This document shows, piece after piece, positions 1,503 through 30,965 of a DNA stretch of 47,107 nucleotides. Position numbers and translations under genes: made by a program. Positions within the stretch are counted from its first letter, which is position 1. The number at the start of each line of letters is the position of its first letter. Location: assembly GCA_019456225.1 (NCBI GenBank), contig VRUI01000034.1:1-47107 (forward strand), read 5' to 3'. Origin of the DNA: Planctomycetota bacterium. Lineage in GTDB: Bacteria > Planctomycetota > Phycisphaerae > Sedimentisphaerales > Anaerohalosphaeraceae. The notes under the pieces are model-generated. The model ran no database searches. It saw only the letters and a list, made by a program, of their open reading frames with translations, and was not told the DNA's origin.

Positions 1503-3254
<1,752 letters not shown>

Positions 3255-3262
<8 letters not shown>

Positions 3263-3446
3263 TGCCGGTTAGGGTTGCTACCCCTAGAGCGGTGCCGAGT
3301 CCTTTGCCTGCGCAGACGAAATCATTCATGTTCTTGATGAATTTGCTGACAAAAATGCCAATACCCAATGAGATCATCGGGTATACTATGACAATAGCCC
3401 AGTCAACTGCAGTAAAGTTTGTTTCTGCTAATATATCAATACTCAA
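3255..3446 (-). pseudogene. 5' fragment of a sodium:solute symporter (SSS family)
   Basis: A TTG start at 3446 with GGGAG six to seven bases upstream opens a frame reading VDWAIVIVYPMISLGIGIF and ending in GTALGVATLTGTEL, the conserved first transmembrane segment and loop of SSS transporters. After codon 64 the frame runs antisense into the beta-galactosidase C-terminus and the homology is lost, so roughly 450 or more residues are missing. The two fragments were once convergent neighbours, as expected for a galactoside uptake and hydrolysis locus. The longer open frame to 2715 is only the shadow of the other remnant. Confidence 0.8.
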
Positions 3447-5837: not shown

Positions 5838-5955
5838 TTTGCCACCGAGGAAAACGAGGAAAAGAGAGGGATAAGAGAAAAGAGTGTGAAAGGCAGAAGG
5901 CAGAAGTGAAAAAAGTGTGAAGGTGTGAAAAGTGCGAAGGTGCGAAAGGGGGGCG
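5838..5955. repeat. Purine-rich degenerate tandem repeat tract
   Basis: The plus strand is almost entirely G and A and carries repeated units such as AGGCAGA AGGCAGA, then GTGTGAAG, GTGTGAAA, GTGCGAAG and GTGCGAAAGG. Repeats of 7-8 bases recall the heptanucleotide tracts elsewhere in this window. It lies just upstream of the HzsA-like gene 1 promoter. No gene is present between 5756 and 6078. Confidence 0.55.
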
Positions 5956-5989
5956 GTATCGGGGATTTTTTTGTTTTTTTGCAATATAT

Positions 5990-6018
5990 TTGGGTTTTGG
6001 GGCGTTTTTTGGTATAAT
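5990..6018 (+). promoter_or_regulatory. Sigma70-type promoter of HzsA-like gene 1
   Basis: TTGGGT (5990-5995), 17-base spacer, TATAAT (6013-6018). The surrounding 40 bases (5981-6020) align without gaps to 25242-25281 upstream of HzsA-like gene 2 with 31 identities. The predicted leader carries a hairpin GTGGGC-acg-GCCCAC at 6045-6059. Confidence 0.65.
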
Positions 6019-6078
6019 AATGGCATTCTTGGTTTGGTTTCAGCGTGGGCACGGCCCACCCTACGGAAGGAATTTATT

Positions 6079-8484
6079 ATGCGTATTTTTGGTTTATTGG
6101 TTTTGTTTTCGGTTTCTTCGGTTTTTGGTGCTTCGGAGCCTTTTAGTGAGCTGCAGGTTCAGTTTGAGGTTCTTAAGGGGGATATTGCCAGACGGGGGCA
6201 AATGCAAAAGTATGCCGACCAGGTGTTTAATTCTGCATCGCTTGTTCTTAAGTCAGACCGTGATCCGCTTGATATTGTTTTGCGGCGGACGCAGGCTTTG
6301 TTTAATGATCTTCCTTTTGAAGCTGACGAAGTTAACCCGTTGTCGATGGAGCTTCGTGCGTTGAAGAAGGCTTCGGCGGGTGTTGAGGTTTCGGATGTGT
6401 CGGGGCGGTATGGGTTGTATGAGAAGGTTTGTAAACTTCGGCGTCGAATTGCTTTTAGTAATCCGCTGCTTGACTTCGATAAATTGCTGTTTATCAAAAG
6501 ACACCGGGCCACTTTCAATCATATGTGCGATCAGTACTATGGAATAAATATTAAACCGGGCGGGGGGATTTGTGTTTTGTCCGATCCGTTTGGGGATGAT
6601 CCTCAGGTTAAGGATATTCTTGCAGACTCTGTTGTTGAAAAGGGTCGTCTAAAGGGGCAAAAGCTTACGGACGGTTCGTTTCTTTCTCCTGATCTGTCTT
6701 ATGATGGCGACAAAATTGTGTTTGCGTATGTCGAGTGTAAGGGTGACAGGAAACACAGGCATCATACCGATCCTTCCAAAGGGCACTGGCATGACCAGCG
6801 GTGTTATCATGTCTTTAGTGCTAATGTTGACGGGACGGGGCTTAAGCAGCTTACGGACGGGACGTGGAACGATTTTGATCCTGTTTATCTTCCTAACGGG
6901 CGGGTTGCTTTTATTACGGAACGGCGGGGCGGGTATCTGCGTTGCGGTAGGGTTTGTCCGACGTATACGCTTTATGATATGAAAGAGGATGGGAGCGATA
7001 TTCGGTGTCTTAGCCCGCATGAGACTAACGAGTGGCACCCTAGTGTGACTAACGATGGAATGATCATTTATACGCGGTGGGATTATGTCGACCGGCATGG
7101 GTGTACTTCTCATCAGCCGTGGATTACTTATCCGGATGGTCGTGACTCACGTTCTGTACATGGTAATTTTGCGCCTCGTAAATCGCGGCCGGATATGGAG
7201 CTGGATATTCGGGCGATACCGGGCTCGCGGAAGTTTGTTTCGACGGCTGCGCCGCATCATGGGCAGGCGTTCGGGTCGCTGGTTATTGTTGATCCGCAGG
7301 TGGAAGATGACGACGCGATGGCTCCGGTGAAACGGCTTACGCCGGAGGTTGGCTTTCCTGAGAGTCAGGGAGGCGGGCAGGTATATGGGACACCGTGGCC
7401 TCTTAGCGAGAAATACTATCTTTGCACATACGATCCTTCGATGCAGCCGGGAGCCGGCAGGCAGGGCAGGAAAGCTGTCAAGGGCAGATATGGGATATAT
7501 CTTGTCGATGTGTTCGGCAATAAGGAGCTGATATACCGTGACGCGGAGATCGCGTCGCAAAGTCCTATGCCGTTTCGGGCGAGAAAAGCACCTCCAGTTA
7601 TCCCGGATAAATCTATTCGCGTCGCGGCCGGTGAAAAGGGCACTGGGACACTTGCAGTGATTAATGTTTATGATACTTTAAAGCCGTGGGATGAAAATAT
7701 TAAGATCACGGACCTTCGTGTTTATCAGATCATTCCTATGTCGGTTCCTTCGGGCAATCCTCCGCATGAGGTTTCTTTGCGTGAACCGACGAGCAAGGAT
7801 TCGGTTGTTTTGGCACGGTATATATTAGGTACGGTTCCGGTTGAGAAGGACGGCAGTGCGCACTTTTCGGTTCCGGCGGATACGGAGATGTTTTTTCAGG
7901 CGCTTGATGAAAATGGGCTGGCTATTCAGTCGATGCGGTCGGCGACTTATGTTAAGCCCGGCGAGAATCTGGTTTGCCAGGGGTGCCATGAACCCAAGCA
8001 GCGTGCGCCTCAGGCGATGAAGTCTATACCGCTGGCTATGCGGCGAGGGCCATCCAGACTCAAGCCTGATGTTGACGGGACGAATCCGTTCAGCTACCCG
8101 AGGCTTGTTCAGCCTGTGCTCGAGAAGAATTGTCTTGGGTGCCATAAGAAACATCCCAAGAAGGCACCGCGGCTGGATAGCGAGGTAATTACAGGCAAAA
8201 ACAAGAAGCAGAAGTGGTATGCGTCTTATCATAGTCTTGCTCCGAAGTATGGTTTTTGGAGCTATGGCGGTCCGCTGCGGACTAAGCCGGGGCAGTTTGG
8301 GGCGCGGGCTTCGAAGCTTTATCAGATGCTGAAAAAGGGACATCACGACGTTAAGCTCTCCGATGAAGATATGCACCGGATCACTGTCTGGCTTGACTCC
8401 TGCTCGATATTTTATGGGGTTTATGAAAAGGAAGGCGGCCAGGCTCAGTTGCGCGGGGAGATTGTTCGGCCTACTTTGGAGTGA
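6079..8484 (+). CDS. HzsA-like secreted dihaem beta-propeller protein 1
   Basis: The ATG at 6079 follows GGAAGG at 8 bases and gives 801 residues with a signal peptide (MRIFGLLVLFSVSSVFGA), so it is exported. A central PD40/TolB-like propeller is visible (SPDLSYDGDKIVFAY, TDGTWNDFDPVYLPNGRVAF, SPHETNEWHPSVTNDGMIIY). It leads into the segment LGTVPVEKDGSAHFSVPADT and two c-type haem sites, C633-C636-H637 (CQGCH) and C685-C688-H689 (CLGCH), 52 residues apart. The architecture matches hydrazine synthase alpha subunit and its relatives in non-anammox planctomycetes. The residue four after H637 is Gln, not the Tyr I recall as haem ligand in anammox HzsA. The likely role is periplasmic electron transfer or substrate oxidation; the substrate is unknown. 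Confidence 0.82.
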   Translation: MRIFGLLVLFSVSSVFGASEPFSELQVQFEVLKGDIARRGQMQKYADQVFNSASLVLKSDRDPLDIVLRRTQALFNDLPFEADEVNPLSMELRALKKASAGVEVSDVSGRYGLYEKVCKLRRRIAFSNPLLDFDKLLFIKRHRATFNHMCDQYYGINIKPGGGICVLSDPFGDDPQVKDILADSVVEKGRLKGQKLTDGSFLSPDLSYDGDKIVFAYVECKGDRKHRHHTDPSKGHWHDQRCYHVFSANVDGTGLKQLTDGTWNDFDPVYLPNGRVAFITERRGGYLRCGRVCPTYTLYDMKEDGSDIRCLSPHETNEWHPSVTNDGMIIYTRWDYVDRHGCTSHQPWITYPDGRDSRSVHGNFAPRKSRPDMELDIRAIPGSRKFVSTAAPHHGQAFGSLVIVDPQVEDDDAMAPVKRLTPEVGFPESQGGGQVYGTPWPLSEKYYLCTYDPSMQPGAGRQGRKAVKGRYGIYLVDVFGNKELIYRDAEIASQSPMPFRARKAPPVIPDKSIRVAAGEKGTGTLAVINVYDTLKPWDENIKITDLRVYQIIPMSVPSGNPPHEVSLREPTSKDSVVLARYILGTVPVEKDGSAHFSVPADTEMFFQALDENGLAIQSMRSATYVKPGENLVCQGCHEPKQRAPQAMKSIPLAMRRGPSRLKPDVDGTNPFSYPRLVQPVLEKNCLGCHKKHPKKAPRLDSEVITGKNKKQKWYASYHSLAPKYGFWSYGGPLRTKPGQFGARASKLYQMLKKGHHDVKLSDEDMHRITVWLDSCSIFYGVYEKEGGQAQLRGEIVRPTLE

Positions 8485-8576
8485 TTTCGTATGTAGAGAG
8501 CTTTGTTTTGAATAACCAATCCGTCACTGCTGCCGGATCTTCGACGTCGAACAAGGAATATTGAATAACCAATAGA

Positions 8577-8600
8577 ACCGGCCCTTGGTCGGTTTTTTTT
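8577..8600 (+). terminator. Rho-independent terminator after HzsA-like gene 1
   Basis: A 7-base stem ACCGGCC / GGTCGGT (one G-U pair) with a CTT loop, followed by eight T. It lies 92 bases after the stop codon. The 13-base direct repeat TTGAATAACCAAT (8508-8520 and 8561-8573) lies between the stop codon and the hairpin. Confidence 0.8.
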
Positions 8601-8719: not shown

Positions 8720-10687
8720 ATGGTGCGAAAAAGGATATTTCTAGTGTTGCTAACTGCGATGTTTGTTTTGCCGGCGGCCGGTTTTGCGGCTGATGACCCC
8801 AACGACGGTGCTGTCGCGGCTGGGGGATTGTTTGGTTTGCCGCTTGAGGAATTGATGGATATGGAGGTTATTTCCGTTACGCGGACGAAGGGGCAGAGTG
8901 TTTTTACGTCGCCGGCTGCGATATATGTAATTACCCAGGAAGATATCCGCCGAAGCGGTCTGCAGTCTATTCCTGAGTTGCTGCGGCTTGCGCCTGGTGT
9001 TCAGGTTTCTCGTATAAGAGCCGATCAATGGGCTATTTCGATTCGTGGAGTTCCAGGCAGGTTTGCGAATAAAATGCTTGTTCAGATTGATGGTCGTGCA
9101 GTTTACTCCATGCTGTTTTCAGGTGTGCTCTGGGAAACACTGGATTTAGTGCTTGAAGATATCGAACGAATAGAGATCATTCGCGGGCCGGGATCGTCGC
9201 TTTGGGGGCCCAATGCAGTTCATGGAATTATCAATATAATCACCAAAAAAGTAAAAGATACGCAGGGGGGATATTTCGACGGTATCGGAGGCAACTACGA
9301 TTCAATCGGTTCATTACGCTACGGGGGTAAAGCAGGCGAAAACGGGTACTGGAGGGCCTGGGGTAAACAGAGATACTCGAATGATTTCCCAACTGTTAAC
9401 AGCGATTTTACCGATGACTATGGATTGACGACTATGGGTTTTCGGTATGACTGGGACGACGGCGACAGTGATACGTATACATTAGAAACAGGTGCATTTG
9501 ACGGTCGTTTTAGTACGTTTTTTCCCGTCGTCGACCTTAGTTCATCTACGATGTCTAACCAGGATACCGAGTTAAATCAGTATGGCGGAAATGTGCGAGG
9601 GCGATGGGAGCATGAGATAGACGATACTTCGTCAGTGTCGTTTCAGGCTTATATCAATATGAATACTTTTAGTATACCCGGCAATCAAATAGATTTCCGA
9701 ATGGACTGGAACCTTTTCGATATAGATTTTCAGCATAACTTCGAAGTCAATGACGATCATGCCATCGTATGGGGTTTGGAGTATCAGCATGATCATTTTA
9801 ACTCCAGAGGCAGTGAGAGGGTGTCGTTTGTTCCGTCAACGCGCAATTTTGACTTATTCAGCGGGTTTGTACAGGATTCATTTCCAGTTTTTACAGAAAA
9901 GTTAAAAGGTATGGCAGGTGTCAAACTGCTCGATAACACATTTACCGGTTTTGAATATCAGCCCTCAGCAAGGCTGGCATATCATTATGACGAGAGACAG
10001 GTTTTCTGGACTGCTTATTCACGTGCGATAAGGATACCCAGCCGTGCTAATCTGGATCTGCTCCTGAATACTATTGCTCCTTCTTCAACACTGATTACAA
10101 CGGGTACGGGCAATAAAGACCTGGTGAGCGGACGGGTAAACTCTTACGAAGCGGGGTGGCGATTATTGTTTAGTGACAAGTTATCGCTGGATGTTACAGG
10201 TTATATCATGAACAGCGACAATATTGTTGATGTCAGGTCACCGGTAATGCAAACAAATGATATAACTTCCAATACTGAAGGTATTGAACTTGCCGTTGAC
10301 TGGCAGGCTTCGGAGAGTTGGCGACTTAAAGGGACTTATTCCTGGTTCCATACTAAGGTTACAAGAGGAAGCAAAAACATTGAGGATAATACACCACAAA
10401 ATATGTTTACTATAAATTCATATAAGAACTTTTCGAAAGAAATCGAACTGAATACGAATATATTTTTCCAGGACAGGATAAACGAAGACACGGACGCTAA
10501 TATTGCTTCATGGTTTCGTTTGGATACAGGTTTAGTATGGCATATTAACAAAGATACAGAATTTGGCATCTGGGGCCAAAATCTTACTGATAATAAACAT
10601 CAGGAATTTACTCCAAGCAGATTTGTAAACACGGGTGCATCGGAGATGCCAAGAAGTTTTTTCTTTCAGTTGACGCGGAGTTTTTAA
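8720..10687 (+). CDS. TonB-dependent outer-membrane receptor
   Basis: The ATG at 8720 is chosen because it opens a clean signal peptide (MVRKRIFLVLLTAMFVLPAAGFA); the frame is open further upstream. The 655-residue product has an N-terminal LPLEELMDMEVISVTR segment, a plug domain (about 60-170: SPAAIYVITQEDIRRSGLQSI, SIRGVPGRFANKMLV, IERIEIIRGPGSSLWGPNAV, GIINIITKK) and a C-terminal beta-barrel ending in the aromatic residue Phe. This subfamily is typically encoded with YfiR proteins and large sensor kinases, as here: the next gene begins 6 bases downstream. The ligand is unknown. Its placement suggests a signalling or sensing receptor rather than only an importer (inference). Confidence 0.9.
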   Translation: MVRKRIFLVLLTAMFVLPAAGFAADDPNDGAVAAGGLFGLPLEELMDMEVISVTRTKGQSVFTSPAAIYVITQEDIRRSGLQSIPELLRLAPGVQVSRIRADQWAISIRGVPGRFANKMLVQIDGRAVYSMLFSGVLWETLDLVLEDIERIEIIRGPGSSLWGPNAVHGIINIITKKVKDTQGGYFDGIGGNYDSIGSLRYGGKAGENGYWRAWGKQRYSNDFPTVNSDFTDDYGLTTMGFRYDWDDGDSDTYTLETGAFDGRFSTFFPVVDLSSSTMSNQDTELNQYGGNVRGRWEHEIDDTSSVSFQAYINMNTFSIPGNQIDFRMDWNLFDIDFQHNFEVNDDHAIVWGLEYQHDHFNSRGSERVSFVPSTRNFDLFSGFVQDSFPVFTEKLKGMAGVKLLDNTFTGFEYQPSARLAYHYDERQVFWTAYSRAIRIPSRANLDLLLNTIAPSSTLITTGTGNKDLVSGRVNSYEAGWRLLFSDKLSLDVTGYIMNSDNIVDVRSPVMQTNDITSNTEGIELAVDWQASESWRLKGTYSWFHTKVTRGSKNIEDNTPQNMFTINSYKNFSKEIELNTNIFFQDRINEDTDANIASWFRLDTGLVWHINKDTEFGIWGQNLTDNKHQEFTPSRFVNTGASEMPRSFFFQLTRSF

Positions 10688-10693
10688 AGAGCA

Positions 10694-11362
10694 ATGAGAC
10701 AGAAAGGCAGTAAAAAATTAGTATTCTTGTTTTTGGCGCTATGTCTGTTTGCTCAGATATTTGCGTTTAAACGGTGCTTTGGTTCTGTCGCTCATGCTGC
10801 TGCGCCGACGAAAAAGGCTTCGGAGTATGAGATCAAGGCGGTTTATTTGTACAACTTTTTGCTGTTTGCCAGCTGGCCCGAGTCCGATGAAGAGGGTAAC
10901 GATGACGAGGGTAAAGTCGGCGATCTGTGCATTGGTATTGTCGGGAAAGATCCGTTCGGGAAAAGTTTTTCCGAGATCGAAGGCAAGGTTATCAAGTCGC
11001 TGAACAAAAGGCTTGTTGTCAAACGTTATGGCAGATATAAAAAAGGGCTTGGGCTGGAAGGATGCAAGCTGCTGTTTGTGTGTTCTTCGGAAAAGGGGAG
11101 TCTTTTAGAGATCATCAAGGAGCTTAAGGAGAGCAGGACGCTGACAATTGCCGACGTTGAGGGCTTTCTCAAGTATGGAGGGATGATAAACCTTGTGAAA
11201 GTAAAAAAGAAGATTCGCTGGGAGATCAATCGTACACCTCTAAAAAAGGCTAACATTCGGTTGAGTTCGCAATTGCTTCGCAGTGCGGTGAAGATCGTCG
11301 AGATTCCAAAGCTGTCTGAAAAGGACAAGGAAAGCGAGATTGCCAGGAGGACGAGGCGATGA
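10694..11362 (+). CDS. YfiR-family (DUF4154) periplasmic regulator
   Basis: The 222-residue exported protein has a signal peptide ending near VAHAAA, then the YfiR core: EYEIKAVYLYNFLLFASWP, GIVGKDPFG, GCKLLFVCSS, TIADVEGFLKYGGMINLV, and the C-terminal ANIRLSSQLLRSAVKIV. In Pseudomonas, YfiR is a periplasmic repressor that acts on the CHASE8-type sensor region of the diguanylate cyclase YfiN and responds to envelope redox state. The three mature-region cysteines (C79, C124, C130) could support redox control. It overlaps the next gene, a CHASE8 kinase, by four bases (ATGA), which argues strongly that the kinase is its partner. Confidence 0.88.
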   Translation: MRQKGSKKLVFLFLALCLFAQIFAFKRCFGSVAHAAAPTKKASEYEIKAVYLYNFLLFASWPESDEEGNDDEGKVGDLCIGIVGKDPFGKSFSEIEGKVIKSLNKRLVVKRYGRYKKGLGLEGCKLLFVCSSEKGSLLEIIKELKESRTLTIADVEGFLKYGGMINLVKVKKKIRWEINRTPLKKANIRLSSQLLRSAVKIVEIPKLSEKDKESEIARRTRR

Positions 11363-14300
11363 TAAAAATGCGCAATATGACAATCAGGAGTAAGCTGACA
11401 GTTATCATGATGGTTGTCAGTGCGGCAGCAGTAGCGCTTTCATGCGCGATTTTCATGGTATCTTCGTTTATTCTTCTTAAAATGGATCACCTTGATAAGG
11501 ACCATGTTCTGGCAGAGCTTACGTGCAGGAACAGCCAGGCTGCAATTATGTTTGATGTACCTGAAGATGCTGAGAAAATATTATCTTCGCTGGCTGCAGA
11601 TCCATCAATCGAGTTTGCGGCCATATATACGCCGGACGGAGAAGTGTTTGCGGTCTATAACAAGAATAGGGATGATGTGAGTATTGAAGCACCTCAGCTC
11701 GGTGAAGAGGGGCATGAATATTCAGGCGGTTATCTCAAGCTATTTCATCATATCCGTTTTGACGATAAAGTTATCGGTACGTTGTATTTGCTGGATAACC
11801 AGGAGGAGGTTTACGCGTCTTTCAGGTGGGATATGGTTACGCTTGGTATTGTGATGCTTATTACGCTGGCGAGTGCATATTTGATCGCCTTTAAACTTCA
11901 GACTGTTATATCCGGACCGATCCTTTCGCTCGCTGAAACGGCAGGGGCGATAAGCAAGACGGAAGATTATTCCATTCGTGCTATAAAACATGGAGGCGAC
12001 GAGGTCGGTGTGCTTATCGATTCGTTTAATTCGATGCTTAATGAGATCCAGGAGCGGGAAGATGCGCTCGCCGAAAGCGAAGCAAAATTCCGTTCGATCG
12101 TTGAAACGTCCAGTGACTGGATATGGGAAATTGACGCTGACGGGATATATATATATTCAAGTCCAAAGATAAAGGATCTGCTTGGATATGAACCGCAGGA
12201 AGTGCTGGGTAAGAGGCCTTTTGAGCTTATGACTCCTGATGAATCCGAAAGAATGATAGCTCACTTCACTGAATTATCAAAGAGAATCGAACCGTTCGAT
12301 AGTCTCGAAAATATAAACCTTCATAAAGACGGCAGACAGGTTATTCTTGAGACAAGTGCGGTGCCGATTTTTGACGAAAACGGCGAATTCTGCGGTTTCC
12401 GTGGAATTGATCGTGACATTACGGAACGCAAACGAGTTGAGGAGCAAATAGCAGTCCTGGCCAGATTTCCGGCAGAGAATCAGAGTCCTGTTCTTCGGAT
12501 ATGCAGAAACGGCAAACTTCTTTATGCCAACGATGCCAGCAAGCTCTTGTTGGACGAATGGAATTGTGCTGTTGGAGAACTTGTACCGGATTACTTACAG
12601 AGCAATGTGCATGACGCACTTTTGGGTAGACTGGAGCATAAAATCGAACTGGAGGTGGCAGGGAGAGTCTATTCTTTTCTGATCGCTCCGATTCCTGAAG
12701 CTGACTATGTGAATCTGTATGGGCGAGACATTACGGATCGCAAACGCTCCGAGGAGGCCCTAAAGATATCCGAGGCAAATTACCGTTCAATTTTTGATTC
12801 TGTAAACGACAGTATATTGATCCATGAGATCGATACCGGAAAAATAATCAATACCAACAGTCAGGCAGCGATGATGTTCGGCTATTCTCAAGAGGAATTC
12901 CAGGATATTACTATTGAGGATTTAAGTGTAATTGAAGAAAATTATACTCTCGATGAAGCGATGAAATGGATAAGAAAAGCAGGCGCTGGAGGTCCGCAGC
13001 TTTTCGAGTGGCACAGCAGGAATAAATATGACAGGGCCTTCTGGACCGAGATCAGTTTAAGGAGCGTGATTCTTGAAGGCAGGAAATGTTTGCTTGCACT
13101 TGTAAGAGATATAGATGAACGTAAGCGGGGCAAGGATGCTCTTGCATCGAGCGAGGCGAGGTTCCGTGCACTTGCCGAAAATGCCAACAGCAGTGTGATC
13201 TCATTAAACAATCGCGGACAGATAGTTTTCTGGAACCCGGCAGCTGAGAAAATGTTCGGCTATTCATCCGCCGAGGCGCTCAGTCAGTTGTTTTCGCTGA
13301 TCTTGTCCCAGCAGCATTATGAAGATTACAGTAACGATCTTGAGCAGATAAGGTTAACCGGTCAAAGCGGTTATACCAAAAAAATTGTTGAGTTTGTCGG
13401 CCTTAAGAAAGACGGTAGAGAATTTCCTATGGAGATGTCCCTTTCAAAGTGGAACACTCCGGAAGGTTTGTTTTTTACTGCAATGTTGACGGATATTACC
13501 GAACGAAAAGAAGCTGCCGATGCACTGCGTCTCGATGAGGCGCGTTTGCAGGTTCTCGTTGAGCTTAATCAGATGACAGATGTTACTGAAAAGGAGTTGG
13601 TTGACTTTGCTCTTGAGCAGACGATCCAGTTGACCAGCAGCAAGATCGGTTACATAGCGTTTTTGAACGAAGACGAAAGTGTTTTTAATATGTTCTCATG
13701 GTCAAAGGAGGTTATGGGGGAATGTATGCTGATGGAGGGTCCGGTTAGCGGGATGGGACTTGTGGGCGAGGCAGTGCGTCAGAGAAGGCCTATCATTTCG
13801 AACGATTACCAGGGGAATGAGCCGTTGAAGAAAGGGTATCCTGAGGGGCATGTGCGTATTGAGCGTCATATGAATATACCGGTGTTTGACGGCAGCAAGA
13901 TCATCGCTGTCGCAGGTGTCGGTAACAAGGAAGATGTTTATAACGATTCGGATGTGCGTCAGTTGACGCTGCTTATGAATGGGATGTGGCGGATTATACA
14001 GCGGAATAAAACCGAGGAGGAGCGAAAGGTTTTGCTTAAGACGCTCGCCTCAAAAAATGAAGAGCTTGAGAGCATTGTTTATACCGCTTCGCACGATCTG
14101 AGGTCTCCGCTGGTTAACATTGACGGATTCAGTTCTGAGCTTGCGTTGAGTTGTCAGGAAGTAACAGAGACGCTTATGCATACTCATCTTCCCGATAGCA
14201 TAGAGCATTCGCTACTGACGATATTGAACGAGGATATCCCCGCTTCGCTAAAATATATTCGTACAAGTGCCACTAAGATGGATATGCTTATGCGTGGGCT

Positions 14301-14787
14301 GCTCAAGCTGTCGAGGCTTGGAAGGGAGGCGACTGAAATTGAGACGCTGAATATGAACGAATTGATCGGCAATATCTGCCTCGGAATGCAGCATCAGATC
14401 AAAAAGCAGCATGTAGAACTTGTCATAGGCCCGTTGCCTGAGTGCCTTGGGGATAAAAGCCAGATAAGCCAGGTGTTTACGAACCTGCTCGATAATGCGA
14501 TCAAATATCTGGATCCGGCAAAGAAAGGAAAAATCCAGGTAAGCGGCGAGTCGCAGGCCGGCGAAAGTATTTACTCGGTAAGCGATAATGGCGTTGGTAT
14601 TGATCAGGAGTGTCATCATAAGATATTCGAGATATTCCATCGTCTGGACCCGGAAGGGACGGTAAGAGGCGAGGGGATCGGCCTTACGATAGTCAAAAGG
14701 ATCATTGATCGGCATAACGGCAGGATGTGGGTGGAATCTTCGGTCGGTGAAGGAACGACATTTCATGTGGCATTGCGTAATGAATAG
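11359..14787 (+). CDS. CHASE8-HAMP-multi-PAS-GAF sensor histidine kinase
   Basis: The order over 1142 residues is: membrane helix (about 12-37), CHASE8-like periplasmic domain (38-150), second helix (155-178), HAMP (180-236), PAS (240-360), a weak PAS-like domain (360-470), PAS (475-595), PAS (597-725), GAF (730-890), then the kinase core. The phosphoacceptor is H912 in SHDLRSPL; the N box (NLLDNAIKY), G1 (DNGVGI), F (IFEIFHRL) and G2 (GEGIGLTIVKR) boxes are all intact. There is no receiver domain and no response regulator beside it, so its output partner lies elsewhere. It would read envelope state through YfiR and the TonB receptor encoded upstream (inference). Its stop codon TAG overlaps a heptanucleotide repeat tract. 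Confidence 0.92.
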   Translation: MIKMRNMTIRSKLTVIMMVVSAAAVALSCAIFMVSSFILLKMDHLDKDHVLAELTCRNSQAAIMFDVPEDAEKILSSLAADPSIEFAAIYTPDGEVFAVYNKNRDDVSIEAPQLGEEGHEYSGGYLKLFHHIRFDDKVIGTLYLLDNQEEVYASFRWDMVTLGIVMLITLASAYLIAFKLQTVISGPILSLAETAGAISKTEDYSIRAIKHGGDEVGVLIDSFNSMLNEIQEREDALAESEAKFRSIVETSSDWIWEIDADGIYIYSSPKIKDLLGYEPQEVLGKRPFELMTPDESERMIAHFTELSKRIEPFDSLENINLHKDGRQVILETSAVPIFDENGEFCGFRGIDRDITERKRVEEQIAVLARFPAENQSPVLRICRNGKLLYANDASKLLLDEWNCAVGELVPDYLQSNVHDALLGRLEHKIELEVAGRVYSFLIAPIPEADYVNLYGRDITDRKRSEEALKISEANYRSIFDSVNDSILIHEIDTGKIINTNSQAAMMFGYSQEEFQDITIEDLSVIEENYTLDEAMKWIRKAGAGGPQLFEWHSRNKYDRAFWTEISLRSVILEGRKCLLALVRDIDERKRGKDALASSEARFRALAENANSSVISLNNRGQIVFWNPAAEKMFGYSSAEALSQLFSLILSQQHYEDYSNDLEQIRLTGQSGYTKKIVEFVGLKKDGREFPMEMSLSKWNTPEGLFFTAMLTDITERKEAADALRLDEARLQVLVELNQMTDVTEKELVDFALEQTIQLTSSKIGYIAFLNEDESVFNMFSWSKEVMGECMLMEGPVSGMGLVGEAVRQRRPIISNDYQGNEPLKKGYPEGHVRIERHMNIPVFDGSKIIAVAGVGNKEDVYNDSDVRQLTLLMNGMWRIIQRNKTEEERKVLLKTLASKNEELESIVYTASHDLRSPLVNIDGFSSELALSCQEVTETLMHTHLPDSIEHSLLTILNEDIPASLKYIRTSATKMDMLMRGLLKLSRLGREATEIETLNMNELIGNICLGMQHQIKKQHVELVIGPLPECLGDKSQISQVFTNLLDNAIKYLDPAKKGKIQVSGESQAGESIYSVSDNGVGIDQECHHKIFEIFHRLDPEGTVRGEGIGLTIVKRIIDRHNGRMWVESSVGEGTTFHVALRNE

Positions 14788-25249: not shown

Positions 25250-25279
25250 TTGGTCTTTTGGAGCGACTTATGGTATGAT
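25250..25279 (+). promoter_or_regulatory. Promoter of HzsA-like gene 2, similar to that of gene 1
   Basis: TTGGTC (25250-25255), 18-base spacer, TATGAT (25274-25279). The block 25242-25281 matches 5981-6020 at 31 of 40 ungapped positions, with runs GCAATAT, TTTTGG and GGTAT-ATAA conserved. Confidence 0.6.
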
Positions 25280-25324
25280 AATTATAAATTAAAGGCTTAC
25301 GTGTTTAAATTGGGTAAAGATGCC

Positions 25325-27745
25325 ATGCATTGCGGTCGAATCAAATGTGAATTCATGTTCTTGCTTTTTGTAGTTTGCTTGTTTGTTGTCAGCGGTTTTT
25401 CCGGCGAGATTGATAAAGAGTATGATTATCTTGCCGCCCAGATAAAGCAAAAACCTGTTGGTGACAGGCATGAACGCCTTGAGAAAGAAGTACTCGGCAA
25501 GGAAGCCTTGATCCTGAAGACAGACCGCGATCCGCTTGATGTTGTTTTGCGACGGACGCGGGCGTTGCTTGATGATCTTGGCGGGATGGATAACGCCCCT
25601 GATCTTGATAGAGAGGCCGTAGAACTTTCTAAATTTACCGAACTTTGCAAGACTATCCCGATCGATGACACCAGGCGAAAAGAGTATTTCACAAAAGTTT
25701 GCAGCCTCAGACGCAAGATCGCGTTTTCAAATCCATTGCTTGATTTTGATAAACTGGTTTTTGCCAAACGCAAAGTTCTCGGCCCAAGCGAGGGTGTCGG
25801 CAATCACATGTGTGATCAGTACTTTGGTTTTTACGCTATCAGAGGCGGCGGGGTATTTATTCTTGACGATATTTTTGGCAAGGCAAAGGTTCGCAATGTT
25901 ATTGCCGATTCTGTTTGTGTCAACGGACGCTTTAAAGGCAAGAAACTTGAAAACGGCAGTTTCCTTTCGCCGGACCTTTCTTTTGACGGTAAGACAATAG
26001 TTTTCGCCTGGACCGAGGCAGAGCCAACCAAGCGTGTCTGGACCGAGCGAAGCACGTTTCATATTTTCAAGGTCAATGTAGACGGCAGTAATCTTACTCA
26101 ACTGACCGACGGCAAGTGGAACGATTTTGATCCGTGTTTTCTGCCCAACGGTCGTATTGTTTTTATCTCCGAGCGGCGGGGCGGATTCGGCAGGTGTCAT
26201 GGTCGCCCGGTTCCGACTTATACCCTGCATTCGATGCGAGACGACGGCAGCGATATTATCGCCATCAGTTCGCACGAGACCAACGAATGGCACCCCAGCG
26301 TCGACAATAACGGCATGATAGTCTATTCGCGATGGGATTATGTCGACCGTGACAGCGACATTGCCCACCATATTTGGCTGACGTATCCGGACGGCCGTGA
26401 CCCGAGAAGTTATCACGGCAATTACCCGGTTAAGCGTGAGAGCCGGCCGTGGATGGAAATGAGTGTTCGGGCAGTTCCCGGCAGTCATAAGTACATCGCT
26501 GTATCTTCGCCTCATCACGGCCAGAATTACGGTTCGCTCGTGATGATCGACCACAGAATCGAAGATGACAACTCGATGAGCCAGGTTAAGCGGGTCACGC
26601 CAGAGGTTCATCTGCCCGAGTCGGAAAAGTCAGCCGGGTGGTCGACAGGTAATATAAGAGAACAGAAGGGCCATGCCAGAAAGGGGCACGTTTTTTCTAC
26701 TCCATGGCCTTTGAGTGAGGATTACTATATCTGCGTTTATGATTCACAAGCCTTCAATCACGGGATATATCTCGTTGACAGTTTCGGCAACCGCGAGCTT
26801 TTGTATCGCGACGATTCGATATCGTGTATTGATCCTATTCCGCTACAGGCGAGGGCAATGCCGGAGATCATCCCTTCCAGAACAATGCAGGCGGCCGAGG
26901 ATCGCATCGGCAAGGTTGAAAACAAAGGGACCATCGCCGTTACGAATGTCTATGACAGCGATTTTGATTGGCCCAAAGGAACTAAGATCAAGGCTTTACG
27001 TGTCATTCAGCTTTTCCCGAAGGCAACGCCGAATGCGAATAAGCCTAATATTGGTTTGGCCGCTCAGTCGCTTTGCAGAGGTGTCCTTGGTACGGTTCCG
27101 GTCGAAACCGACGGCAGTGCGTATTTCGAAGCACCGGCCGATATCCCGATGTATTTCCAGGCACTCGACGAAAAGGGCATGGCCGTAATGAACATGCGGT
27201 CGAATACTTATGTCCACGCCGGTGAACAGCTTACTTGTCAGGGTTGTCACGAACCTAAGTTGCGGACGGTAAGCAGTATGCCGAAGAGCAGGCCTTTGGC
27301 GCTTATGAGAGGTCCTTCAAAGTTAAAGCGTGATGTTGACGGTTCGTATCCTGTCCTGTATCCGAGACTCGTTCAGCCGGTGATCGACAAGAAATGCATC
27401 GGCTGTCACAGCAAAAAAGAAAAGGCCCCAAACCTGAGTACGGAGATAGTCAAGCATGGATGGACGCAGTCGTTTATGACGCTTTCAAAGTACGGCTGGG
27501 GCAAGAGCGGCGGTAATGGTGCGATACGCGGAAATAAGGGCAGCAGGTCGGTCATCGGTGACGTTGGGGCAGGCGGTTCAAAGCTGTATAAGATGCTAAA
27601 GAAGGGCCATCACGATGTTAAGCTAACCGACGAAGAGATGTACCGAATAACACTGTGGCTCGACTGCAACACAAATTTCTACGGAGCATACCGCGATACC
27701 GACAAGCAGGCAAAAGGCGAAGTAGTAATGCCTGAGATTTTTTAG
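25325..27745 (+). CDS. HzsA-like secreted dihaem beta-propeller protein 2
   Basis: The start at 25325 is chosen because it opens a signal peptide (MHCGRIKCEF then a hydrophobic run to SGFSG); the ribosome site is weak. The 806-residue product is a clear paralogue of HzsA-like protein 1: shared DPLDVVLRRTRALLDDL, SNPLLDFDKL, SPDLSFDGKTIVFAW, TDGKWNDFDPCFLPNGRIVF, SPHHGQNYGSLVMIDHRIEDD and LGTVPVETDGSAYFEAPAD. Haem sites are C638-C641-H642 (CQGCH) and C691-C694-H695 (CIGCH), 53 residues apart. The residue four after H642 is Leu. It lies between the c-type cytochrome gene and HzsA-like gene 3, so an electron partner may be close by. Its TAG stop is within a heptad repeat tract. Confidence 0.83.
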   Translation: MHCGRIKCEFMFLLFVVCLFVVSGFSGEIDKEYDYLAAQIKQKPVGDRHERLEKEVLGKEALILKTDRDPLDVVLRRTRALLDDLGGMDNAPDLDREAVELSKFTELCKTIPIDDTRRKEYFTKVCSLRRKIAFSNPLLDFDKLVFAKRKVLGPSEGVGNHMCDQYFGFYAIRGGGVFILDDIFGKAKVRNVIADSVCVNGRFKGKKLENGSFLSPDLSFDGKTIVFAWTEAEPTKRVWTERSTFHIFKVNVDGSNLTQLTDGKWNDFDPCFLPNGRIVFISERRGGFGRCHGRPVPTYTLHSMRDDGSDIIAISSHETNEWHPSVDNNGMIVYSRWDYVDRDSDIAHHIWLTYPDGRDPRSYHGNYPVKRESRPWMEMSVRAVPGSHKYIAVSSPHHGQNYGSLVMIDHRIEDDNSMSQVKRVTPEVHLPESEKSAGWSTGNIREQKGHARKGHVFSTPWPLSEDYYICVYDSQAFNHGIYLVDSFGNRELLYRDDSISCIDPIPLQARAMPEIIPSRTMQAAEDRIGKVENKGTIAVTNVYDSDFDWPKGTKIKALRVIQLFPKATPNANKPNIGLAAQSLCRGVLGTVPVETDGSAYFEAPADIPMYFQALDEKGMAVMNMRSNTYVHAGEQLTCQGCHEPKLRTVSSMPKSRPLALMRGPSKLKRDVDGSYPVLYPRLVQPVIDKKCIGCHSKKEKAPNLSTEIVKHGWTQSFMTLSKYGWGKSGGNGAIRGNKGSRSVIGDVGAGGSKLYKMLKKGHHDVKLTDEEMYRITLWLDCNTNFYGAYRDTDKQAKGEVVMPEIF

Positions 27746-28451: not shown

Positions 28452-30965
28452 ATGAAGAGTTTTGGTGTTTTATTTCTCTGCGTAAGTTTAATATTTGTAA
28501 GTACCGCATTTTGCATGGTTGGTGAAATTGAGCCTGCTTTGAAATCTCTGACAGACGCGGTGAATGATCTGGGCAGTAAGTTTAAGGGGGATTATCCGGC
28601 AAAAGAATATTTGGCGGAAATTGCAAAGATCCGTCAGGCTATTCAGTCGGAAGGCGCTCAGATGTTTGAAGTCAAAGAGCGTTTGGTTCAATTACAGCGT
28701 CAGGCTCTATTGGCCAATCCTCTTTTGACGAAGTATCCAATACTTTACGTCTGTCGCGATCAGTATCCGTCGGACCACCACAATACGGCGACGATGTTCC
28801 AGACCGATGAGATCAATACAGGTAAGTATCGCGGTCGCGGTTATCTTAAAACAGTTGATTTTTCTAAAGACGGGAAAGTTACTACTCTTCTCGATCCCGG
28901 GGCGACTTCAATTCCGCGTGATCCTGAGGTGAGCTTTGACGGCAAGCGGATCGTTTTTTCAATGCGTAAGGATATCAAGGACAATTATCACGTTTATACC
29001 ATCAATTCAGACGGGAGCGGTTTAAAGCAGCTTACTTCGGCGGCGGGGGTTTTTGATATTGATCCGCTTTTCCTTGCCAACGGTCAGATCGCGTTTACTT
29101 CCTCGCGTGACCCGAAATACTGTATGTGCAATCGGCATATCATGGGTAACCTGTTCAAGATGGAGGCCGACGGTGCCAACATTCATCAGCTTGGGGTAAG
29201 CACGCTTTTTGAAGGGCATGGTTCGCTGATGCCGGACGGCAGGATATTGTACTACCGCTGGGAATATGTTGACCGTAACTTCGGCGACGCGCAGGGGCTG
29301 TGGGTTGTAAACGCGGACGGTACTAATCATGCTGTTTACTGGGGTAATAATACCGGATCGCCGGGCGGAGTTCTTGACGGAAGGATCATTCCGGGAACCA
29401 CGCTTTGTATTAGTACGCTCAGTTCGTGCCATGATCGGCCATGGGGTGCTATCGGTATTATAGACCGCAACAAAGGTATCGATTCGACTGATGCGATAAT
29501 CAGGACCTGGCCGACCGATGCCAAAAGGCTCTGGAACCCCCGTGGCAGTTTTGACAGTACCAAGGGTCTGAAGGTCAAATACGAGGACCCATTCCCGCTT
29601 TCGGAAAACTACTTTCTGGTCTCCAGACAGGTCGGCAAGACGATGGGTATCTGCCTGATCGATACGTTCGGCAATGAGATCGTTATACATACTGACAGTC
29701 AGGGTTGTTTCGATCCGATGCCATTGGCGCCTCGCCCGCGGCCTGAACCAAAGCCCGAGATGCGGGACTACAAAAACGACAAAGGCGTTTTCTATGTTCA
29801 GGATGTTTATATCGGTACGCATATGGAAGGCATCAAACGTGGCGATGTGAAATCCTTGCGTGTTATCGAATCTCCGCCGAAGAAGAACTGGACCAGCGGT
29901 CAGTGGGGCGGTCAGGGTGTGCACTGCCCGGGTATGAACTGGCATAATTTTGAAAACAAACGGATTCTCGGGACGGTACCGGTTGAAGATGACGGCTCGG
30001 CGCATTTCGAGTGTCCTTCGGATAAGTTTGTTTTCTTCCAGCTGCTTGATGAAAATGGGATGATGGTCCACTCTATGCGGAGCGGCACGATGATCCAGTC
30101 CGGTGAAACACAGGGCTGTGTCGGATGTCACGAAAACCGCACGGAAACGACAATGCCCAAGGTTGCAAGTGCCAAGGCCATGAGACGAGGCCCAAGCAAG
30201 CTTAACGGCTGGTACGGAAAGCCGAGAATGTTCAGCTTCCAGAAGGAAATCCAGCCGATATTTGATAAGCACTGCGTCAAATGTCATGACTTTGACAAAC
30301 CGGCTGGCGAAAAGCTCATACTTGCAGGTGATCGGACGATCAGCTTTAACGCTTCTTATATTGACCTTTGGAGCAAAGAGATTATCAAATGTGTCGGCGG
30401 CGGACCGGCTGCCATTCAGCAGGGCAAAAGCTGGGGTTCGCATCCAAGCAAGCTTATCAAGGTGCTTCGTGAAGGGCATAAAAAAGGTACGCCGGGGTAT
30501 GACAAACATAAGGGGATAAAACTTAGCGCCGAAGAAATGGACCGGCTGATCACTTGGGTCGATCTTAACGCGCCGTATTACCCGTACTATGAATGTGCTT
30601 ATCCGAACAATCCGTGCGGAAGGTCGCCTATCGATGGTAAGCAGTTTAGCAGGCTTAGGAAACTGACGGGGGCTCATTTTGTGACGGGACACGGGAAAAA
30701 TAAGCGTGCGATGATCTCATTTGATCGGCCGGTGCTTAGCCCATGCCTGAAAAAACTGGACAAAAACTCTACCCAGTACAAAGAGGCCCTGGCAATAATC
30801 CAGGCCGGTAAAGCACAGCTCGAAAAACTACCGCGCGGCGATATGGACGGCTTTGTCCCATGTGCCAAGGACAGCCAGAGACTACAGAAATATAATAAAC
30901 GCGTAGAGATCGAACTGCAAAACAGAAAAGCAATACGGCAAGGCAAAAAGATATACGATAAATAA
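28452..30965 (+). CDS. HzsA-like secreted dihaem beta-propeller protein 3 (divergent)
   Basis: The 837-residue product has a signal peptide (MKSFGVLFLCVSLIFVSTAFC) and the same plan as the other two: propeller repeats (DPEVSFDGKRIVFSM, DIDPLFLANGQIAF, EGHGSLMPDGRILYYRWEYVDR), then LGTVPVEDDGSAHFECP and haem sites C556-C559-H560 (CVGCH) and C608-C611-H612 (CVKCH), again 52 residues apart. It differs from them in having CMCNRHIMGNLFKM, SSCHDRPWGAIGI, and a long C-terminal tail (about 715-837) with further cysteines. The residue four after H560 is Thr. It heads a run of exported redox and sulfatase genes. Function unknown; periplasmic oxidation or electron relay in glycan use is inferred. Confidence 0.82.
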   Translation: MKSFGVLFLCVSLIFVSTAFCMVGEIEPALKSLTDAVNDLGSKFKGDYPAKEYLAEIAKIRQAIQSEGAQMFEVKERLVQLQRQALLANPLLTKYPILYVCRDQYPSDHHNTATMFQTDEINTGKYRGRGYLKTVDFSKDGKVTTLLDPGATSIPRDPEVSFDGKRIVFSMRKDIKDNYHVYTINSDGSGLKQLTSAAGVFDIDPLFLANGQIAFTSSRDPKYCMCNRHIMGNLFKMEADGANIHQLGVSTLFEGHGSLMPDGRILYYRWEYVDRNFGDAQGLWVVNADGTNHAVYWGNNTGSPGGVLDGRIIPGTTLCISTLSSCHDRPWGAIGIIDRNKGIDSTDAIIRTWPTDAKRLWNPRGSFDSTKGLKVKYEDPFPLSENYFLVSRQVGKTMGICLIDTFGNEIVIHTDSQGCFDPMPLAPRPRPEPKPEMRDYKNDKGVFYVQDVYIGTHMEGIKRGDVKSLRVIESPPKKNWTSGQWGGQGVHCPGMNWHNFENKRILGTVPVEDDGSAHFECPSDKFVFFQLLDENGMMVHSMRSGTMIQSGETQGCVGCHENRTETTMPKVASAKAMRRGPSKLNGWYGKPRMFSFQKEIQPIFDKHCVKCHDFDKPAGEKLILAGDRTISFNASYIDLWSKEIIKCVGGGPAAIQQGKSWGSHPSKLIKVLREGHKKGTPGYDKHKGIKLSAEEMDRLITWVDLNAPYYPYYECAYPNNPCGRSPIDGKQFSRLRKLTGAHFVTGHGKNKRAMISFDRPVLSPCLKKLDKNSTQYKEALAIIQAGKAQLEKLPRGDMDGFVPCAKDSQRLQKYNKRVEIELQNRKAIRQGKKIYDK

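Follow-up and report, generated by a model that had tools for sequence, protein, structure and literature searches.

RESULTS

Three adjacent genes. The DNA analyzed here, hereafter the window, is one whole contig (C79 in our set; 47,107 bases) of a Phycisphaerae planctomycete genome (G000) that measures 4.45 Mb and is 95.8% complete. On its + strand, the window carries a triad of genes encoding a TonB-dependent receptor (TBDR; 8720..10687, with an ATG at 8720 and a stop codon that ends at 10687), a YfiR-family periplasmic protein (10694..11362), and an 1,142-residue histidine kinase with a CHASE8-HAMP-PAS(x3)-GAF-HisKA-HATPase architecture (11359..14787). We consider it fairly probable that the three proteins form a Yfi-type trans-envelope relay with a kinase output, in which the TBDR signals via soluble YfiR to the kinase. 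An original prediction, made from the sequence of the window by itself, held that +6 and -4 spacing makes the three genes one unit, and the coordinates agree: 6 bases separate the TBDR and YfiR genes, and the YfiR and kinase genes overlap by 4 bases (ATGA). The unit looks co-transcribed. A terminator-like hairpin at 8574-8596 precedes the TBDR gene, and none was found at the two junctions between the triad genes. Within the TBDR gene there is a single weak + strand terminator-like match, at 9620; over the whole region, 4 such patterns were found relative to 5.6 expected, i.e., no excess.

The receptor has a signal-peptide-like N terminus by eye, followed by Pfam Plug (8903-9229, +; 73.7 bits) and beta-barrel (9332-10585, +; 76.7 bits) domains. 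Since the Pfam scan gave Plug and barrel alone and no STN signaling domain, we rejected the TBDR as a FecA-type transducer. Ahead of the plug, the segment LPLEELMDMEVISVTR (8837..8884, +) shows, by eye, an LE-x-LM-type motif and then a stretch at what we take to be the usual place of a TonB box. Both could be seen by eye in most of 48 TBDR rows, which are the only rows where a pattern could locate the N-terminal segment. The second protein matched PF13689 (DUF4154, YfiR/HmsC) at 113.8 bits relative to a cut-off of 24.9 (domain at 10826-11287, +), and its AlphaFold2 model (predicted local distance difference test score [pLDDT] of 85.5) returned YfiR or YfiR-complex entries as all 15 of its best PDB matches in Foldseek.

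The original prediction depended on the periplasmic domain of the kinase being CHASE8-like in a hidden Markov model search. That search was run and left the prediction standing, with CHASE8 found at 50.2 bits relative to a cut-off of 27 (kinase residues 46-144; 11494..11790, +). Pfam also detected HAMP (residues 184-232; 11908..12054, +; 29.1 bits), three PAS stretches, GAF_2 (101.2 bits), and HATPase_c (residues 1031-1140; 14449..14778, +; 89.4 bits); the HisKA-like phosphoacceptor stretch with its SHDLRS box (14074..14322, +) matched weakly, at 17.3 bits, below the cut-off of 26.9. There was no Pfam match to GGDEF in the kinase, whose output is HATPase_c, and the CHASE8-HAMP input therefore sits on a histidine kinase rather than a cyclase, as had been proposed. 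We accordingly rejected a cyclic di-GMP (c-di-GMP) output for this kinase, although the genome itself has two GGDEF open reading frames (ORFs). The kinase had also been described as having no receiver domain and no adjacent regulator; indeed, we found no receiver domain in it at an E value of 0.1 or better and no receiver domain or response regulator among the eight flanking proteins scanned.

Distribution of the triad. The adjacent TBDR-YfiR-kinase order is that of three linked NCBIfam families, TOL_0244 (NF053590), TOL_0243 (NF053591), and HK_near_YfiR_like (NF053592; in full, sensor histidine kinase, YfiR-like protein-associated), with family names derived from Thalassolituus oleivorans locus tags. 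Each window protein aligned to nearly the full length of its NCBIfam model and scored below the curated cut-off (507.7 relative to 645 for the TBDR, 103.3 relative to 125 for YfiR, and 187.7 relative to 194 for the kinase); hence, we regard the window proteins as diverged relatives and do not call them family members. The TOL_0243 cut-off was passed by the YfiR proteins of Geomonas (151.4) and of a Desulfobacterales genome (148.9).

A gene-neighborhood survey of YfiR homologs, which had been proposed as a check, was then carried out on neighborhoods annotated using profiles grown from the window proteins; a TBDR was counted if it lay within 1.5 kilobases (kb) upstream of YfiR. Among order-level relatives (L032 to L068), which were selected for having a YfiR match, CHASE8-HAMP came next downstream of 33 of the 37 YfiR ORFs, a TBDR lay upstream of 16, and both were present at 15. 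The corresponding numbers for 83 YfiR ORFs of named genomes, the best 80 of at least 509 relatives, were 65, 63, and 53, with triads spanning the labels of at least ten phyla; these two sets share some genomes. Two broader draws were evenly sampled. In the phylum of Geomonas (297 genomes, 48 with PF13689; 72 of the 73 listed places used), 54 of 70 YfiR ORFs had CHASE8-HAMP next downstream, 58 had a TBDR upstream, and 46 had both. In the Pseudomonadota (398 genomes, 94 with PF13689), the numbers were 71, 45, and 35 of 89, based on 90 places in the upper portion of the list, which leaves the weakest matches under-represented. A single-protein scan of genome contigs found no relative. In the neighborhood survey, the triad recurs far beyond chance. 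An accidental operon of three functionally unrelated genes is scarcely credible given that the survey contradicts it, the same order and near-zero spacing recurring across many phyla, and that the NCBIfam families are linked.

The output domain varied among relatives. Kinase calls outnumbered GGDEF calls by 48 to 1 in the Geomonas-phylum draw and by 51 to 18 in the Pseudomonadota draw, although the kinase calls are partly uncertain, since 11 of 56 and 12 of 58 profile matches, respectively, lacked a G1-box pattern (9 and 10 of these are explained by the end of the stretch). In a Nitrospira, a Nitrospiraceae, and a gammaproteobacterial triad (L111, L116, and L147), the receptor and YfiR are retained, and Pfam detected CHASE8-HAMP-GGDEF-EAL in the place of the kinase. 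A receiver-kinase protein comes after the CHASE8 kinase at three other loci (L040, L055, and L061), and the kinase of a Geomonas locus (L095) bears its own receivers and Hpt. The lack of a regulator in the window is therefore one arrangement among several.

Gene number varied as well. One planctomycete locus (L048; G048:C53, 4528-16632) holds four TBDR genes, two YfiR genes, and one CHASE8 kinase gene in a genome without detectable TonB; several receptors may therefore share one kinase. Another (L117, 1588-3015) has a tandem pair of YfiR ORFs by a CHASE8 kinase, resembling a tandem-YfiR case described for Thauera (PMC3375315).

Conservation of the docking residues. Mutational data from Pseudomonas aeruginosa point to an AAVVF motif of YfiN, on the membrane-distal side of its periplasmic domain, as the binding site for YfiR, and to the area around Phe162 of YfiR as that for YfiN (PMC3375315); in the YfiB-YfiR crystal structure, the face of YfiR that is used overlaps this YfiN-docking patch (PMC4655355). 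The equivalent of the YfiN motif in the window kinase is AAIMF (residues 61-65; 11539..11553, +), the proposed site of YfiR binding. The equivalent of P. aeruginosa F162-E163 is W176-E177 of the window YfiR (11219..11224, +), within the proposed docking patch (PMC3375315, PMC4655355). We aligned 205 YfiR-sensor pairs, 20 of the 225 found having been dropped for gaps or identity. The column of kinase F65, the Phe of AAVVF, was Phe in all 205 paired sensors and was the most conserved sensor position listed. The column of YfiR residue 176 (Phe162) was Phe in 175 and Trp in 8, i.e., Phe or Trp in 183 of 205, and that of residue 177 (Glu163) was Glu in just 114. Since the Pseudomonas docking residues persist on both partners, YfiR very probably docks on this kinase, as judged from the aligned residues.

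One detected TBDR and no detectable TonB. The window TBDR is the sole Plug match in its genome. In the same genome, no TonB was detected with PF03544 (TonB_C), PF13103 (TonB_2), or a lineage-built profile (0 matches). The last was made from twelve TonB C termini, eleven of them from planctomycetes, and it found 3 of 3 TonB-bearing controls and none in 36 other genomes. The three profiles likewise found no TonB in any of 34 YfiR-bearing planctomycete genomes (that of the window and 33 related ones). At least one plug was present in 31 of these TonB-negative genomes and exactly one in 18; in 13 of the 18, the lone plug ORF adjoins YfiR (8 by listed place and 5 by a Pfam check of the neighboring receptor). 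For the other five, the plug was on another contig in four and unplaced in one; in two of those four, YfiR has a receptor fragment next to it where the contig ends. TonB is not missing group-wide, since TonB_C was found in 11 of 38 family- or order-level genomes; in two genomes read in detail, TonB lies, by eye, beside ExbB- and ExbD-like genes. What is new here is that the triad receptor is the only TBDR detected in a genome where no TonB is detected.

The genome of the window has two ExbD genes. A TonB hidden beside ExbD was considered and rejected, there being no TonB-like neighbor in the stretches read, although the upstream side of the second ExbD gene is hardly visible at its contig start. 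No Pfam family was found in the long gene that follows the first. One ExbD gene, near a contig start (L161; G000:C87, 420-1319), adjoins an oppositely oriented gene for a NikR-type nickel regulator.

These results bear on a different reading of the triad, in which the TBDR imports a scarce compound that YfiR binds before regulating the kinase, so that the TBDR and YfiR never touch. Behind the YfiR entries, the YfiR model next matched substrate-binding proteins in Foldseek, and all 28 non-planctomycete YfiR-bearing genomes have TonB_C (26) or TonB_2 (the remaining two). TOL_0244 was reported to rise sevenfold on the n-C28 alkane relative to Tween 80 and was suggested to take that alkane up after binding it; its similarity to OmpS, a TBDR said to be indispensable for alkane detection, is 40.3% (PMC6304351). 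Because of these data, we take hydrophobic compounds as one ligand candidate, no more. However, since no TonB was found in the genome of the window or in its 33 relatives, energized import is doubtful there; moreover, no inner-membrane transporter gene adjoins the triad, the nearest being that of a sugar transporter two genes upstream. We consider uptake-coupled sensing rather unlikely.

In the boldest reading, the receptor of this planctomycete lineage might have become a TonB-free, sensing-only outer-membrane protein that signals via YfiR to the kinase through ligand-driven plug movement rather than TonB force. We offer this only tentatively. The main alternative is a diverged TonB or another force transducer, and a gap in a 96% complete genome could also account for the result. 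Retention of the stretch at the TonB-box place favors some surviving partner, whether a force transducer or, as a suggestion, YfiR itself. By analogy, vWA (von Willebrand factor A)-type proteins could be candidate stand-ins for TonB; in the Planctomycetes-Verrucomicrobia-Chlamydiae (PVC) group, a 2025 paper describes such proteins next to TolQ/TolR-like genes and proposes that they transduce force (PMC12204202).

Observations that weigh against the relay. Several results count against a relay from receptor through YfiR to kinase. A 99% complete relative (G013) has a YfiR-kinase pair (L044) and no plug match in its genome, which means that not every such pair requires a receptor. Among the order-level relatives, a TBDR lay within the 1.5-kb limit at just 16 of the 37 YfiR places, and some genomes have further TBDRs elsewhere; one (G001) has 5 plugs, none of them beside its YfiR gene (L059).

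Covariation between the YfiR patch and the kinase motif counts on both sides. It was run on the paired sequences by mean-field and by pseudolikelihood methods; by eye the intra-protein signals looked sound, and the inter-protein ones were mostly noise. The patch comprised six residues taken from the papers, the equivalents of F151, V160, F162, E163, I169, and L183, and the statistic was the mean of the three strongest couplings, computed for 215 overlapping kinase segments and for four re-pairings within groups. Segment 58-67 ranked 1st of 215, relative to 81st, 129th, 35th, and 126th in the re-pairings; with a seventh residue (the Gln187 equivalent) it was still 1st, and the re-pairings gave ranks of 100, 131, 8, and 164. 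Smaller subsets of the patch, however, placed it at rank 9 or 4, with segments starting at 61 or 55 in the lead. A mean-score version ranked the motif 1st but also ranked it 1st and 3rd in two of the four re-pairings, a result that conservation alone can yield and that makes this version uninformative. Finally, the top 30 inter-protein pairs were not enriched in the periplasm (15 relative to 14.7 expected). The segments also overlap, and we take the covariation, which is weak, as suggestive only.

A receptor-free YfiR-kinase pair such as that of G013 would also fit a reading in which the TBDR is an ordinary transporter that shares an operon with its own regulator, the YfiR-kinase pair sensing envelope or redox stress and controlling TBDR expression. 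Consistent with this explanation, Pseudomonas YfiR has redox-dependent disulfides (PMC4655355). In our alignment, however, the equivalent of Cys152 was Cys in 11 of 205 sequences, and the equivalents of residues 79 and 124 were both Cys in 4 of 205, even though the aligned part of YfiR had two or more cysteines somewhere in 176 of 205. A redox relay via Pseudomonas-type YfiR cysteine pairs was therefore rejected as a conserved feature, the pairs not being conserved in position, and the suggestion in the original prediction that redox signals pass through YfiR was not supported, although the cysteines found elsewhere leave some room for redox sensing. The frequent adjacency of the TBDR in the two broader draws (58 of 70 and 45 of 89) and its status as the sole plug match of the genome likewise speak against an ordinary transporter, and we regard this explanation as improbable.

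Neighboring genes. Among the neighbors covered by the protein scan, a sugar transporter and an HZS_alpha-type protein lie upstream of the triad. The downstream genes encode a zinc-ribbon protein, a hexapeptide protein, PlsY, and three proteins of LPS or glycosyltransferase type, namely, a glycosyltransferase, a Kdo/WaaP-family kinase, and a heptosyltransferase-family protein. Three long proteins of the window (5932-8484, 25250-27745, and 28452-30965) each have a hydrazine synthase alpha middle domain and CxxCH heme motifs. Two adjoining ORFs (2066-2722 and 2745-3269) match a beta-galactosidase-type enzyme, one its N-terminal part and the other its small chain, an arrangement that an internal deletion or an assembly error could leave.

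DISCUSSION

The triad is a real, conserved cassette, probably for trans-envelope signaling, of a type that is already partly catalogued and, as far as our literature search shows, uncharacterized as a whole. No description of, or experiment on, the whole triad was found in that search, which left subscription journals mostly outside, even though triads of this kind reach many phyla. The central claim of the original prediction is thus sound, yet less novel than thought: kinase outputs on the YfiR/YfiN core were already reported by Malone et al. in 2012 (PMC3375315), and the word "TonB" is absent from the main text of that report.

We propose that the TBDR is located in the outer membrane and that soluble periplasmic YfiR uses the conserved patch around Phe/Trp176 to dock on the CHASE8 domain at its AAxxF tip, where it would keep the kinase in one state. 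An outside ligand bound by the TBDR would change the periplasmic face of the receptor (the plug and N-terminal segment), and YfiR would be captured or released as a result. The kinase would then switch its autophosphorylation through HAMP and pass the phosphoryl group to an unlinked response regulator, with the PAS and GAF domains contributing cytoplasmic inputs. The claim that the TBDR replaces YfiB stands in part. The TBDR gene lies upstream of YfiR, and no gene for a YfiB-type PAL-like lipoprotein lies beside the YfiR-kinase pair in a search of the neighborhood, not the rest of the genome; we found no support beyond synteny, from which the TBDR appears to be the outer-membrane partner of YfiR.

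The Yfi core is best known for switching c-di-GMP. Kinase outputs outnumber GGDEF in both broader draws. In addition, Phycisphaerae genomes with one receptor, a YfiR-kinase pair, and no detectable TonB provide a clean setting for the question of TonB-independent signaling by a TBDR.

Among known systems, WalK-YycH, in which the protein partner of a sensor kinase lies outside the membrane, resembles the window sensor on the basis of structure only: the best Foldseek matches of the CHASE8 sensor model include WalK and other extracellular sensor domains, the closest being a WalK-YycH model entry. The hosts of WalK-YycH are Gram-positive and have no outer membrane.

The Pseudomonas YfiBNR system (PMC3375315) shares with the window the YfiR fold, the CHASE8-HAMP input, the AAxxF motif, and the aromatic residue of the YfiR patch. 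The window differs from it in having a kinase rather than a diguanylate cyclase, in having a TBDR where the PAL-like lipoprotein YfiB would be, and in that the Cys152 equivalent is not conserved in window-type YfiR proteins. In FecA-FecR, a TBDR sends its signal through the periplasm to reach the inner membrane (PMC11658791), as the window TBDR is proposed to do. However, the window TBDR has no STN domain, and its proposed relay would consist of soluble YfiR and a kinase rather than FecR and a sigma factor. Furthermore, FecA signaling requires TonB/ExbBD, one exceptional mutant aside, and wild-type FecA does not signal without TonB (PMC11658791), which was not found in the genome of the window. 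Alcanivorax OmpS resembles the window receptor in being a TBDR, one described as essential for alkane detection (PMC6304351). A counterpart for the whole set is the TOL_0244/TOL_0243/HK_near_YfiR_like triad, whose family names tie a TBDR, a YfiR-like protein, and a kinase together, and from which the window differs in that its host is a planctomycete without detectable TonB.

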